Positions 16,782 through 23,154 of a stretch of DNA of 64,000 nucleotides are shown piece after piece. This stretch comes from Candidatus Stramentimicrobium fermentans (lineage in GTDB: Bacteria; Atribacterota; Phoenicimicrobiia; Phoenicimicrobiales; Stramentimicrobiaceae): positions 65,820 through 129,819 of the forward strand of contig JAAYOB010000007.1 of NCBI GenBank assembly GCA_012520575.1, in the 5' to 3' direction. Both the position numbers and the translations under genes were made by a program. Within the stretch, counting starts at the first letter, position 1; each line of letters opens with the position of its first letter. The notes beneath the pieces were generated by a model. It was given only the letters and a program-made list of their open reading frames with translations, did no database searches and was not told where the DNA came from.

Positions 16782-17813
16782 TTACTTAAAAAATATTTTA
16801 GCAAAATCAAGCCACTCTTTATTTACTATTTTAATCTCTTTGGTTGCCTCTTCTAAGGGTACCGAGATAATCTTATCACCATTCATAGCTGCCATCTTAC
16901 CAAAATCTTCTTTTGCTATTAATTCCATGGCTTTAACCCCGGTACGTAAACCTAACATCCGATCAAATACGGTAGGGATACCGCCTCTTTGAATGTGACC
17001 GATAACCGCATGGCGAGTTTCCAGACTGGTTTTCTCACAGATTAAGTCTGCTAAGACTTGCCCAATCTCTCTCTTTCTCAAAATCATATGCCCAAACTGG
17101 TCTAATTCTTCTTTTTCGATACCGATACTCGGTAATTTAATCCCCTCCGATACTACTACCAGGGCATATTTTTTTCGGGCATACACTCGCTGGAGCTGTT
17201 TGCACATCTCCTCGATATCCGGTTCTTCTTCCGGCAGTAATATCCAATCGGCTCCGGAGGCCAATCCGGTATAGAGAGCAACCCAGCCTGCATATCGACC
17301 CATTACCTCCAGTATCATAACCCGATGGTGAGATTTTCCGGTATCCTCTAAACTCTTCATTGCTTCTACTGCTCTCGTAACTGCACTATCAAAACCAAAG
17401 GTGAAATCAGTGGAGGATAGATCGTTATCCATGGTTTTAGGTGCTCCTACTATCTTCACCTTACATTCCTTATATAGTCTAGAGGCAACTCCTAAGGTAT
17501 CTTCTCCACCCATAGCTAAAAGAGCATCAAGACCATAGTTTTTTATGGTACTTATTACTCTTTCTACTCCATTTTCCATTTTAAACGGGTTGGTACGAGA
17601 TGTCCCTAAAATTGTACCGGACTTATCTACTAATTCCTCCACATCCTGCAAGTCAATTTTAACTATATTTCCATCGATCAAGCCTCTCCAGCCATCTTTA
17701 ATACCAAAAACTTCATAATCGAAATCATGGGCTCGATAGACAGCACCACGAATAGCCGGATTGAGCCCGCAGCAATCTCCTCCGCCTGTTAAAATACCAA
17801 CTCTTTTCGACAT
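16782..17813 (-). CDS. 6-phosphofructokinase, probably pyrophosphate-dependent
   Basis: 343 residues of the PfkA superfamily, phosphorylating fructose 6-phosphate. The start G-I-L-T-G-G-G-D-C-C-G-L-N-P is typical. Two residues that decide the phosphate donor are of the PPi type: G-G-E-D places Asp105 where ATP enzymes have Gly (E. coli G104), and P-K-T-M-D-N-D places Lys126 where ATP enzymes have Gly124. So PPi use is likely; a mixed or ATP activity cannot be excluded from sequence, and Glu104 for the usual Asp is unusual. It is 39 bases downstream of fba, so the two make a glycolytic pair, transcribed toward dnaE. Confidence 0.93.
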   Translation of the reverse strand: MSKRVGILTGGGDCCGLNPAIRGAVYRAHDFDYEVFGIKDGWRGLIDGNIVKIDLQDVEELVDKSGTILGTSRTNPFKMENGVERVISTIKNYGLDALLAMGGEDTLGVASRLYKECKVKIVGAPKTMDNDLSSTDFTFGFDSAVTRAVEAMKSLEDTGKSHHRVMILEVMGRYAGWVALYTGLASGADWILLPEEEPDIEEMCKQLQRVYARKKYALVVVSEGIKLPSIGIEKEELDQFGHMILRKREIGQVLADLICEKTSLETRHAVIGHIQRGGIPTVFDRMLGLRTGVKAMELIAKEDFGKMAAMNGDKIISVPLEEATKEIKIVNKEWLDFAKIFFK

Positions 17814-17852: not shown

Positions 17853-18719
17853 CTAAACTCTGTTCTGGGAACCTAATACTCTGATACGGTCTCGAATAAC
17901 CTCTTTAGCAGCCTCTTTAGCCACACCCAAAACCTTTCTGGGGTCTATCTCTTGGGGATTTTTGGTTAAGTATTCTTTTGCTGCCCTGGTAAAGGCCATC
18001 CGTATCATAGTATCTATATTTACCTTGCATATTCCGGCTGTTATTCCTTTTCTAACTTCTTCATCGCTTGCTCCCGATGCTCCATGCAATACCAGAGGAA
18101 GACCGGTCAAATTTCTTATTTTTTCAATCCGGGGTATGTCTAATTGAGCTATTGGTTCTTGGCAACCATGTATAGTACCTACAGCTGCGGCCAGTGAATC
18201 AATACCGGTTAATTTGACAAATTTTTCCGCTTCGATAGGATCAGCAAAAAATTCTTTTATCTTCTCCCGAGCTACCCCGGGTTCATCACTGGAATCCATC
18301 TTACCAATCTGGCCTATCTCTGCCTCTACCGGAATACCAACAGCATGTGCCATCTCCACAACTTTTTTGGTTAACATGACATTTTCATCAAAAGGTAAGG
18401 CTGAACCATCGAACATCAAAGAGGTAAATCCGGCCCTCAGACACCTAATGTTTTGTTCGTAATCAGTTCCGTGGTCTAAATGCAAAACTACCGGTATAAA
18501 GGTCCTCTCTGCTAACACTTTCACCATAGCTACAATCATATCCAAACCGGCATACTTAATGGCACCTTGAGAAGCTTGAACTATTACCGGTGCTCTTTCT
18601 TCTTCTGCAGTCTCGATAATAGCCTGTACTATCTCCATGTTATTGGCATTAAAGGCACCAATTGCATATCGGTTTTTTAATGCATCCTGCAATATTTCTT
18701 TACTGTTTACTAATGGCAT
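17853..18719 (-). CDS. fba: Class II fructose-1,6-bisphosphate aldolase
   Basis: 288 residues of the zinc-dependent class II family, which cleaves fructose 1,6-bisphosphate to dihydroxyacetone phosphate and glyceraldehyde 3-phosphate. Zinc-site motifs are visible: L-H-L-D-H-G-T-D-Y (about 79-87), the Glu-rich loop V-E-A-E-I-G-Q-I-G, and V-L-H-G-A-S-G-A-S followed by K-V-N-I-D-T. The related tagatose-bisphosphate aldolases look similar; the glycolytic partner pfk just downstream favours the fructose enzyme. It starts at ATG 18719 with AAAGGAG about 5 bases upstream. A promoter candidate lies about 130 bases upstream. Confidence 0.94.
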   Translation of the reverse strand: MPLVNSKEILQDALKNRYAIGAFNANNMEIVQAIIETAEEERAPVIVQASQGAIKYAGLDMIVAMVKVLAERTFIPVVLHLDHGTDYEQNIRCLRAGFTSLMFDGSALPFDENVMLTKKVVEMAHAVGIPVEAEIGQIGKMDSSDEPGVAREKIKEFFADPIEAEKFVKLTGIDSLAAAVGTIHGCQEPIAQLDIPRIEKIRNLTGLPLVLHGASGASDEEVRKGITAGICKVNIDTMIRMAFTRAAKEYLTKNPQEIDPRKVLGVAKEAAKEVIRDRIRVLGSQNRV

Positions 18720-19227: not shown

Positions 19228-20877
19228 TTAATAACCTTCCTCCAGGTTTATTTTATTTTCTGGTTCTTCCCCCTCGAAGATCCGTTTAATATTTTTATAC
19301 ACCTCTAATACATTTTCTTCTACTGCTTTGTCGGTATAGCCAGCACTATGCGGTGACATTACAACATTAGATAATTCCTGAAAGGCAAATTTACTGGGTA
19401 ACCTTTGCGGGAAATCTCGGTTGGGGTACTGGTACCAGGTATCTATCCCCGCTCCTGCCAGGGTTCCGTTTTTTAGATATCTATAGAGAGCCTCCTCATT
19501 AATAACCTTTCCCCTACCTACATTGACCAGATATTTCCCTTTCATTAATTTTAACATAGAACCACCAATTACATCTTCGGTCTTGGCTGTCAGGGGCAAG
19601 GTAACAACGATGAAATCAGATTGTGATATAACATATTCTAATTGTTCCATCGTTCCTAAGAAGGTTAAATTATATTTCTTTTGCAGGTCTTCCTCTTTTT
19701 TAAGAGTACGTTTTACCGCATAAACCTTCATACCAAAAGAGATGGCTCTTTGAGAGATCTCCAAACCGATGGCACCTAAACCTATGATTCCTAAGCTTCT
19801 ACCGGCGAGTTGAATGGTAGGCTCTTGAGTAGTATACCCATGCCACTCACCCTTTCTCAATTCTCTGTCACTGTATATTAAATTTTTAGCCAATGCCAGT
19901 AATAGGCAGAAGGCTAATTCTGCAACTGCAGAACTATTGCCATGAGTATTGCAAACATTTATCTGGGGAAACCTTTTAAAAACATTCATGTTCTGTTGGT
20001 CGACTCCGGTAAAAGGTATTTGAAATAATTTTAAACTTTTAGCCATATCGAGCTCGGATTCACTCAACTCTCCTCCTATAATTACCTCAGCCGAGGCCAA
20101 TTGGTCACTCGTTAGCTTGCTATCTCGTTCCGGAAAAATGAACTCAAGGGGTAATTGCTCTTCTTGATTATATCTATTTAATAATTCTACCCATTGTTTT
20201 TGACTGACCATCTTGCTAAATATTATTATCTTCATTTTTCTATAATCCCTTTCGGTTATTTGACTTTCTTCGCCTTTGAGGTATTCTCGAACTGCTACTA
20301 AATGCTTACACTCTAAATTCCATTTTCGGCAGTTATGCTCGAAATCATAACAATCACATTCAGGAACTGATAGATTGACATGATACACTTTGCTATTCTT
20401 TTTATTCTTAACCAGAAAGTGCTCTCCTGCATCCTCTACTCTTAAGTCTTTAGAGGCAAGCGCCCTCTTATTCTGCTCTTCCTTTACCAGTAGCTTCCTT
20501 GCTAATTGATCTGCCAGCTGATTGTTTTCCCTTCTGTTCCAAATAAAAAAGATTGGCGCCTTTATTTTTTTAACCAATTCCTGTGTTTTTTCATAAAGTG
20601 GAATTATTTTCTTGTTTTTTACCTTAAACTGCCCATTCAATTGCTTCACTACTAATTGACTATCACAATAAAACTCAATAGAATCAGCCGACAAATCTTT
20701 TATTTCTTCTAAGCCTCTAATAACGGCACAATACTCGGCAATATTGTTGGTTCCTACTCCAATCAGTTCATTGATTTTTTTCCATAATTCACCATCACGA
20801 TAGATAACAATCCCGATAGCCATATTACCAGGATTGGGAATACAGGACCCATCTACACGTATTAACAGTTTCGCCAT
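19228..20877 (-). CDS. Fusion of RNase HI, SWIM-like zinc motif and D-2-hydroxyacid dehydrogenase
   Basis: 549 residues in one uninterrupted frame. Residues 1-132 are an RNase HI fold with all four acidic catalytic positions (D9 in V-D-G-S, E48 in I-A-E-Y, D72 in C-D-S-Q, D123 in L-A-D-Q). Residues about 165-200 carry C174-x-C176 and C190-x-H192, a SWIM-type zinc motif. From about residue 215 (M-K-I-I-I-F) a D-2-hydroxyacid dehydrogenase follows, with NAD motif G-L-G-A-I-G-L-E, N-V-G-R-G and P-H-S-A-G; the usual catalytic Glu motif (D-V-F-E) reads D-T-W-Y. Met215 is a natural start for a stand-alone dehydrogenase, so internal initiation is possible. The gene follows the TIGR00725-like gene by 13 bases. 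The joint function is unknown. Confidence 0.85.
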   Translation of the reverse strand: MAKLLIRVDGSCIPNPGNMAIGIVIYRDGELWKKINELIGVGTNNIAEYCAVIRGLEEIKDLSADSIEFYCDSQLVVKQLNGQFKVKNKKIIPLYEKTQELVKKIKAPIFFIWNRRENNQLADQLARKLLVKEEQNKRALASKDLRVEDAGEHFLVKNKKNSKVYHVNLSVPECDCYDFEHNCRKWNLECKHLVAVREYLKGEESQITERDYRKMKIIIFSKMVSQKQWVELLNRYNQEEQLPLEFIFPERDSKLTSDQLASAEVIIGGELSESELDMAKSLKLFQIPFTGVDQQNMNVFKRFPQINVCNTHGNSSAVAELAFCLLLALAKNLIYSDRELRKGEWHGYTTQEPTIQLAGRSLGIIGLGAIGLEISQRAISFGMKVYAVKRTLKKEEDLQKKYNLTFLGTMEQLEYVISQSDFIVVTLPLTAKTEDVIGGSMLKLMKGKYLVNVGRGKVINEEALYRYLKNGTLAGAGIDTWYQYPNRDFPQRLPSKFAFQELSNVVMSPHSAGYTDKAVEENVLEVYKNIKRIFEGEEPENKINLEEGY

Positions 20878-20890
20878 AGATACCTCACCT

Positions 20891-21397
20891 TTAATAATTA
20901 TAAATAATTGCTAACCTTTCCTTTACAAGTGTTTTTAACTCTGCCACCTCATTGATATAATAAACTTTTCCTTCTTTTTGGAATGGCTTCAGCCAGCCAC
21001 CAACCTCGAACCTGAATAAGATAACTTCTTTCCCATATTTCAAAGCGAGGGCAATCTCTGAAATGGTCCCGGCACTTCCCGGCAGAGCTATAATCAGATC
21101 TGAACTCAATATATTAATTACATTTCTAGCCATACCCATCCCGGTTGCAATAGGTATATCAATGTATTGGGAAGCCCAATCGGGGTTATCTACCGGTAAA
21201 ATTCCCACTGTAATTCCACCGTTATCTTTGGCGCCTTTTGCTGATGCCTTCATCACTCCTGCATCCCGTCCACCATTTAACAATACCCAACCTTCCTGGG
21301 CAATCATGGCCCCTATTTGATAGGCAAACTGTTCATCCTGGGGATGCACAAATTGTGTTCCCCCCATTACCCCTATGACTATTCTTTTAATAGGAAT
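20891..21397 (-). CDS. TIGR00725/LOG-family (lysine-decarboxylase-like) nucleotide-binding protein; 5' end uncertain
   Basis: Rossmann-like protein of the TIGR00725 group, related to LOG cytokinin-riboside phosphoribohydrolases and molybdenum-cofactor carrier proteins. The motifs G-G-R-D-A-G-V-M and P-G-S-A-G-T-I-S-E match the G-G-x-x-G-x-M and P-G-G-x-G-T-x-x-E signatures. The first ATG (21367) would remove the family's opening strand; the frame upstream reads I-P-I-K-R-I-V-I-G-V-M-G-G-T and fits the family N-terminus. It is open into an 11-G run but has no ATG, GTG or TTG nearby. Either an ATT start behind the G-run is used, or the run has the wrong length: one more G would join an ATG at 21423. 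I drew it to the ATT at 21395-21397. Confidence 0.78.
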   Translation of the reverse strand: MPIKRIVIGVMGGTQFVHPQDEQFAYQIGAMIAQEGWVLLNGGRDAGVMKASAKGAKDNGGITVGILPVDNPDWASQYIDIPIATGMGMARNVINILSSDLIIALPGSAGTISEIALALKYGKEVILFRFEVGGWLKPFQKEGKVYYINEVAELKTLVKERLAIIYNY

Positions 21398-21813: not shown

Positions 21814-22548
21814 ATGAACATGGATGAAAGAATAAAACATGCTTTTGAGTATTCCAAGATATTGAAATGGCCTAAACAATTACTCTCCTCCTTTGGTTCT
21901 TCCGAAGTTAACTACCATGTTTTAACTGAACCTGTTTATCAAGAATTTACCAAAGGAGAGGTAGAAACAGTTGTAAGAGAAGGAAAGGTAAGCTGGTATA
22001 GGCCTCAATTGATAACACCAGAATATATTTTACGTATCGAAGGTTTTAGTGAAGAGGCCAGAAAAACACTTCTTTCCATAGCCCAGGAGATGCCTGATTT
22101 AGCGAATATCCTTTATCGTTTCCATTTTAAAAGAGAAGTAGACTCTATGAGCTTTGTTTCGGGAAGTATCGAAGCGGTCGCTGACAAGATATCACGAGAT
22201 ATTGACAAAAGGGGCGATAATCTTTCGGCAATTATCAGGGGAGAGGGTGATTTGTGGGATATTTCACTCTCAAAATTTATTCTTGATATGATGACCAGGA
22301 GCGCAATGCAATCTCAATTTCCGGAATTAAGGAAAAGGGGGCTAATCAACTACAACAGCTCAGGGTATCAGACCATAATACGTGATAGACAAGGTATTCC
22401 CCTAGTAGCCAAGAAGGAGATTGAAATTATGTTTGATATGGTAAAACACGGCGATATGGAGCCTAAAGAACTAAAGATTGAATTAGACCGTTGGGGATTA
22501 TTCCAAATATACCAAGACCGTTTTTTTAATCTTTTTAGAAGGAGGTAG
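21814..22548 (+). CDS. Conserved-looking protein of unknown function (first gene of unit)
   Basis: 244 residues, no family recognised. No signal peptide or membrane segment is visible, so it should be cytosolic. It is rich in charged residues and predicted helices; the C-terminal 45 residues (after an I-P-L-V-A-K-K-E segment) end in a Phe/Arg-rich tail F-F-N-L-F-R-R-R. A central S-x-S-I-E-A-V-A-D-K-I-S segment could be a dimer or nucleotide-contact region, but this is a guess. The start ATG at 21814 follows A-A-A-G-A-G-G by 8 bases. The next gene begins 6 bases after the stop, and its ribosome site overlaps this gene's last codons, so the two are translationally linked. Own promoter upstream. 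Confidence 0.8.
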   Translation: MNMDERIKHAFEYSKILKWPKQLLSSFGSSEVNYHVLTEPVYQEFTKGEVETVVREGKVSWYRPQLITPEYILRIEGFSEEARKTLLSIAQEMPDLANILYRFHFKREVDSMSFVSGSIEAVADKISRDIDKRGDNLSAIIRGEGDLWDISLSKFILDMMTRSAMQSQFPELRKRGLINYNSSGYQTIIRDRQGIPLVAKKEIEIMFDMVKHGDMEPKELKIELDRWGLFQIYQDRFFNLFRRR

Positions 22549-22554
22549 TATATA

Positions 22555-23154
22555 TTGGTATTTATTAAATCCGCTCGCGAAATAGCCTTAGAAAAAGTTT
22601 CCCAAAAAAAACTCAGCAGCAAGGAAATTGATGAGATAAAACAACAAGCTAAGATAGATACTGTCTTAGCAAAATATTACAAAGACCAGATTGAACCTGA
22701 CCAATTATGGTCTCACTTAAAAGAAATTCCTGAAAAATATCTCAGTCTGGCGCAGAATAATTTTCTTAAAACCTTGACTTTTTATAGTAATCCTTATGAT
22801 ACGGAGAAAAGGAAAAAAGGACTACTGGCTATAGAAAAGGTAAAAAAAATTGACCAATCCTCTGATGTAGAATTCTATTTCAATCAATTAGTTGAGGTCC
22901 AAAATGGTTTCCAAAATGAGATTGACCAGTCAATGGAAAAGGTAAAAAAAGATTTAGAAAACAATCCTGAAAAGAGATTGCGGACTTTTCAACAGGGAAA
23001 TCAGATTATTATAAAAGAACTGAGCGTTGAAGAAATTGTGGAACAGGATAAAGGACTAAAAGAAGCATTAAAGCAAATAGAAAAAGAATATATTGATAAA
23101 TATAATATCTTAAAAGAGAGACTGGCTGATTTTCTGAACAAAGCAGTCCAATAG
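22555..23154 (+). CDS. Charged, helix-rich protein of unknown function (second gene of unit)
   Basis: 199 residues beginning with TTG at 22555, chosen because AAGGAGG lies 9 bases upstream. No family recognised. It is dominated by Lys, Glu and Gln in long helical stretches (about 85-195), suggesting coiled coils; there are no cysteines, signal peptide or membrane segments. It could act as a structural or binding partner of the preceding gene product; that is inference from coupling alone. A terminator 48 bases downstream closes the unit. Confidence 0.78.
   Translation: MVFIKSAREIALEKVSQKKLSSKEIDEIKQQAKIDTVLAKYYKDQIEPDQLWSHLKEIPEKYLSLAQNNFLKTLTFYSNPYDTEKRKKGLLAIEKVKKIDQSSDVEFYFNQLVEVQNGFQNEIDQSMEKVKKDLENNPEKRLRTFQQGNQIIIKELSVEEIVEQDKGLKEALKQIEKEYIDKYNILKERLADFLNKAVQ

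Follow-up and report, generated by a model that had tools for sequence, protein, structure and literature searches.

The window analyzed here, a 64,000-nucleotide stretch of a Candidatus Stramentimicrobium fermentans contig, contains a single gene in which an RNase HI, a SWIM-like zinc motif and a D-2-hydroxyacid dehydrogenase-like domain are joined in one frame. The fusion is genuine and old: it became fixed in the common ancestor of a single order of Atribacterota. With a probability of roughly two in three, the best reading of this order-specific protein is a predicted RNase HI whose zinc tail would bind the substrate, tethered to an independent dehydrogenase-like oxidoreductase. The gene and its parts are as follows.

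19228..20877, minus strand: the fusion gene itself, starting with ATG at 20877 and encoding 549 aa before the stop; found at full length in 18 genomes of the order
20488..20877, minus strand: RNase HI domain of the Sulfolobus tokodaii ST0753 type, residues 1-130 (Pfam, solved relatives, invariant acids)
20281..20446, minus strand: SWIM-like zinc motif region, approximately residues 145-199 (invariant ligands, weak Pfam SWIM, predicted strands and helices)
20236..20283, minus strand: linker, residues 199-214, of near-constant length and low identity; site of the split in genomes G002 and G008
19231..20235, minus strand: D-2-hydroxyacid dehydrogenase-like domain, residues 215-549 (Pfam, GxGxxG at 366-371, R455, H510, Tyr484)

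Gene structure and neighborhood

The first-pass annotation had described an uninterrupted 549-codon frame without giving its strand. The frame is confirmed, begins with ATG and runs from 20877 to 19228 on the minus strand, the plus strand over the same interval having many stops. The succession of RNase HI, zinc motif and dehydrogenase in one frame, also noted earlier, is borne out by Pfam and by 18 full-length fused frames; such a frame lies far beyond chance, because 18 independent genomes hold the whole of it open without stops. Mean pairwise identities among the 18 fused proteins were 70% for the RNase H region, 64% for the dehydrogenase, 59% for the SWIM region and 31% for the linker, the length of which stayed within 16-18 residues in all of them. 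In the AlphaFold model, residues 1-200 were predicted well (most blocks at 70-94) but the dehydrogenase poorly (pTM 0.38, with a shallow alignment).

Around the fusion gene, the following neighbors were recognized by Pfam, the latter two lying downstream and being syntenic.

20891..21367, minus strand: SLOG cluster-4 (LDcluster4) gene, co-directional, 13 bases upstream of the fusion
17853..18719, minus strand: class II fructose-bisphosphate aldolase
16782..17813, minus strand: phosphofructokinase

The SLOG gene and the fusion likely belong to the same operon. The SLOG gene stands beside the fusion in most relatives and is missing there at three loci (L024, L029 and L034), while the gene order SLOG, fusion, aldolase, phosphofructokinase, dnaE is common to many of them. 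Two genes without a Pfam match (window 21814-23154, plus strand) diverge from the SLOG-fusion pair and are likewise syntenic in many relatives. A role in a defense system was considered and rejected: PADLOC gave no match to the fusion, and the SLOG gene matched PsyrA weakly (E 8e-5).

Distribution and history of the fusion

Whether other genomes carry the fusion had been left to a search, and it was found, complete and without internal stops, in 18 of the 24 genomes of the same Atribacterota order, which comprise two families (f1 and f2). The bacteria of this order are uncultured in every record examined. The 17 orthologues are full-length and 52-73% identical to the window protein. Four of the 24 genomes, 63-76% complete, had no match to the RNase part. 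Whether relatives encode the halves as separate adjacent genes had likewise been asked; in G002 and G008 the gene is split in the linker, and each half occupies a frame of its own, overlapping the other. In the tree of fused proteins, the split version of G002 falls together with G000 (support 0.987) and that of G008 with G009 (support 1.0), so that both are nested inside the fused family f1, with both halves intact. This nesting among fused relatives indicates that the fused form is ancestral in the order and was split twice later, unless the splits are errors in runs of A.

Outside the order, the fusion was not found in the other 26 Atribacterota genomes, except for a contig-end fragment, or in about 340 other bacteria; neither the fusion nor the SWIM tail appeared among the matches listed in a search of 386 genomes. 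Nor was either found in 59 viral RNase H loci, and no match in phage records covered 80% of the query. In other Atribacterota families, RNase HI is plain, about 32-39% identical, and ends near residue 133, or none was detected. The fragment comes from a genome of another Atribacterota family (G045), where an N-terminal piece of the fusion, 80% identical, lies at a contig end and the genome has its own plain RNase HI too; misbinning and transfer are both possible. On that contig (L035:114-8346), genes that from their sequence are likely gas-vesicle genes are followed by SLOG and then by the fusion piece. As for the claim that no protein with this domain order was known, no description of one was found in the open-access papers searched.

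RNase HI domain and SWIM-like zinc tail

The RVT_3/RNase_H profiles match residues 4-128 of the fusion (E 4e-17 and 1e-10), both PF00075 and PF13456 being above cut-off in the window protein. The four catalytic acids named in the first-pass annotation (D9, E48, D72 and D123) do not vary among the 18 fused orthologues. The best solved relatives of this part are 3aly/2ehg from Sulfolobus tokodaii (E 5e-21), followed by Mycobacterium Rv2228c (3hst). The archaeal enzyme (Sto-RNase HI, ST0753) has the same short RNase HI core and is the closest solved structure but, unlike the fusion, it stands alone, with neither zinc tail nor dehydrogenase. The fusion is the genome's sole PF00075 match, and there is one RNase HII besides. 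We infer that the cell has no type 1 RNase H other than this N-terminal module, which is predicted to remove RNA from RNA/DNA hybrids.

All four ligands of the zinc motif (C174-x-C176 and C190-x-H192, residues 174-192) are invariant in 18/18 fused orthologues; the C-x-C...C-x-H pattern itself had been seen earlier in the single sequence. This is the ligand pattern of the SWIM zinc finger (PF04434), although the window protein scores below the profile threshold and had no match at E<1; eight of the 18 members matched weakly at E<1, the best at E 0.017. Structure prediction confidently gave strands plus helices for the region. Judging from the motif, we infer that the tail binds nucleic acid, although its net charge is only slightly positive, and close to zero in several members. 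In some RNases HI, a hybrid-binding domain has been proposed to compensate for an absent basic protrusion (PMC1950709). RNase H1 with such a domain (dsRHbd/HBD) is likewise an RNase HI with an added, presumed substrate-binding domain (PMC1950709), whereas the tail of the fusion has a zinc motif, lies C-terminal to the RNase and is unrelated in sequence. By analogy, the zinc tail could do here what the hybrid-binding domain does in those enzymes.

A two-domain archaeal RNase H-SWIM protein of 211 aa (locus L076) passes PF04434 (19.9 versus a cut-off of 19.6), and no other RNase H-SWIM was found among its 101 relatives. Its RNase H is 40-46% identical to its best matches among other archaeal RNases H compared with 32% to the fusion, and this closeness suggests that the two proteins may have acquired the SWIM motif independently. 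This stand-alone protein is encoded in a Nitrososphaeria MAG (L076:6360-11138), between a UvrD-like helicase and Csm1/Cas10, and may be associated with a type III CRISPR locus.

Dehydrogenase-like domain

The 2-Hacid_dh_C/2-Hacid_dh profiles match residues 227-544 (E 2e-44 and 2e-10), with PF00389 and PF02826 above cut-off in the window protein and matched by all 18 orthologues. The nearest solved structures are archaeal dehydrogenases and glyoxylate reductases (E ~1e-33). Like D-2-hydroxyacid dehydrogenases such as Pyrococcus glyoxylate reductase 2dbq, the domain has, by sequence, the family fold, the GxGxxG motif (366-371) and the active-site Arg455 and His510, all three identical in 18/18. 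The catalytic Arg-Glu-His set is nevertheless incomplete: in all 18 proteins the Glu is replaced by Tyr484 (motif DTWYQYP), which aligns with Glu270 of 2dbq, the residue that we take to be the catalytic Glu. Hence, the earlier description of a complete NAD-dependent dehydrogenase is right as to length but overstated as to the canonical catalytic Glu and the NAD cofactor. As judged from these residues, the dehydrogenase half is a homologue in a non-canonical subfamily and would differ in mechanism from canonical members.

Relatives from other lineages that stand alone have a D-[TV]-W-[WYF]-x-Y-P motif in common with it, from which it follows that the replacement of Glu is older than the fusion and marks the subfamily. 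At six loci of these stand-alone dehydrogenases, neither RNase H nor SLOG was found in conserved context. After the second strand, K389 is invariant and there is no acidic residue, which hints at NADP rather than NAD as the cofactor.

The junction and the reality of the fusion

The natural methionine at residue 215 had prompted a second possibility, namely that a stop codon was lost recently and that two products are made. A recent loss is not supported, the fused frame being common to two families of the order. The chance that two neighboring genes were joined artificially, by misassembly or by a recent frameshift, is negligible. Two relatives do have separate overlapping frames, but the fused frame is present in 18 genomes from different assemblies and the linker is in frame everywhere, its length changing in whole codons only; the orthologues thus refute an assembly artefact. 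The converse, that the splits in G002 and G008 are themselves artefacts of indels in A-runs and that all members of the order carry the fusion, is less easily dismissed, though still rather unlikely: both genomes are metagenome assemblies and differ from their fused relatives near A-runs, but the downstream frames have usable starts (Shine-Dalgarno energies of -11.6 and -7.6 kcal/mol) and G002 differs from its relatives across the whole linker.

Production of a free dehydrogenase besides the fusion, by a restart at Met215, is not supported either and seems improbable. The codon is ATG in 14 of 18 orthologues, a purine-rich stretch precedes it in some f1 members (L004, L005 and L006), and the upstream stretch in the split G002 is strong (-11.6 kcal/mol). 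However, the other four orthologues have ATT, ATA, ATA and CTA at this position, and among them is L006, which has the best upstream stretch. The Shine-Dalgarno signal was scored by pairing the 17 preceding bases with the 16S tail and compared with random internal codons; the median fraction was 0.54 at the junction, indistinguishable from a random internal codon, versus 0.02 at the true start. The losses of Met215, together with the lack of a signal at the junction, make a conserved internal start unlikely.

RNase HI fusions elsewhere

Fusions of RNase HI with a metabolic enzyme are already known as a class, to which the present protein belongs. The published example is the actinobacterial RNase HI-CobC (Rv2228c, MSMEG_4305, SCO2299; NCBIfam PRK07238), which likewise consists of an N-terminal RNase HI, a variable linker and an unrelated metabolic enzyme, with separable domains. 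In contrast to the present protein, its partner is a phosphatase and it has no SWIM tail; the two match in sequence over the RNase part only, and by Pfam the fusion has no phosphatase profile but a dehydrogenase in the C-terminal place. In MSMEG_4305, growth and in vivo hybrid levels changed little when CobC was removed, CobC was dispensable for the RNase role, the linker was highly variable, and fixation by drift was proposed (PMC7466739).

Further fusions were found among unusually long RNase HI frames in other genomes. In three genera of one family (L211:468-2348, L209 and L210; G074, G221 and G359), RNase HI forms the C-terminus of a CoA-binding, succinyl-CoA ligase-like (acyl-CoA ligase-like) protein. 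It precedes in frame a complete IMP dehydrogenase with CBS domains in G201 (L212:1929-3899). A C-terminal RNase HI follows KdsA (DAHP_synth_1) in two families (L213:814-2142 in G179; L214:1997-3304, minus strand, in G316) and IspF (YgbB) in two families (L222:1175-2296 in G160; L227 in G296, the latter judged from sequence only). A PDDEXK_3 (GxxExxY-type) nuclease domain is joined to RNase HI in G282 (L224:1500-2402). L217 (G084) and L228 (G229) seemingly have two or three tandem RNase H-like repeats, in which the later copies lack some of the acids. Thus, RNase HI has been joined to housekeeping enzymes repeatedly, which makes the dehydrogenase case less surprising and the class more interesting.

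Independence or coupling of the two halves

In the preferred reading, the N-terminal module would remove RNA from RNA/DNA hybrids such as R-loops and primers, its short Sulfolobus-type core gaining a grip on the substrate from the SWIM tail, much as from a hybrid-binding domain elsewhere. The C-terminal module would be a separate, non-canonical 2-hydroxyacid dehydrogenase-like oxidoreductase, and the variable linker would tether the two and ensure their equal expression, each remaining independent in catalysis. That two species re-split the fusion suggests that the enzymes probably work independently, and since the halves do not appear to need each other, drift or co-expression is the probable reason why the fusion became fixed, and not channelling or mutual control. 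Counting against independence, its retention in 18 genomes means that the covalent linkage may bring some advantage.

Functional coupling, in which the dehydrogenase-like domain would sense NAD(P)H or a ligand and gate the RNase H or direct it to a site that depends on redox state or on a metabolite, perhaps together with the SLOG protein, is unlikely. It would account for the retention across two families, for the replacement of the catalytic Glu by an invariant Tyr484 and for the gene of a nucleotide-binding superfamily (SLOG) just upstream in most relatives. However, the split G002 and G008 keep both halves, the linker is unconserved, the Tyr motif also occurs in dehydrogenases from other lineages that stand alone and lack a neighboring RNase H, and SLOG is not beside the fusion at the three loci mentioned above. 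The more specific proposal of a dehydrogenase-like domain that senses redox state or a metabolite and switches the RNase HI-SWIM nuclease on RNA/DNA hybrids appears very doubtful; if true, it would tie central metabolism, with aldolase and phosphofructokinase adjoining, to R-loop or primer removal.

The fusion offers a clear, order-wide example, complete with natural splits, for the question of why RNase HI repeatedly joins unrelated metabolic enzymes, and in it a zinc motif may take the place of the hybrid-binding domain. As fused and split versions both exist in nature, drift and function as causes of the fusion become directly testable against each other.
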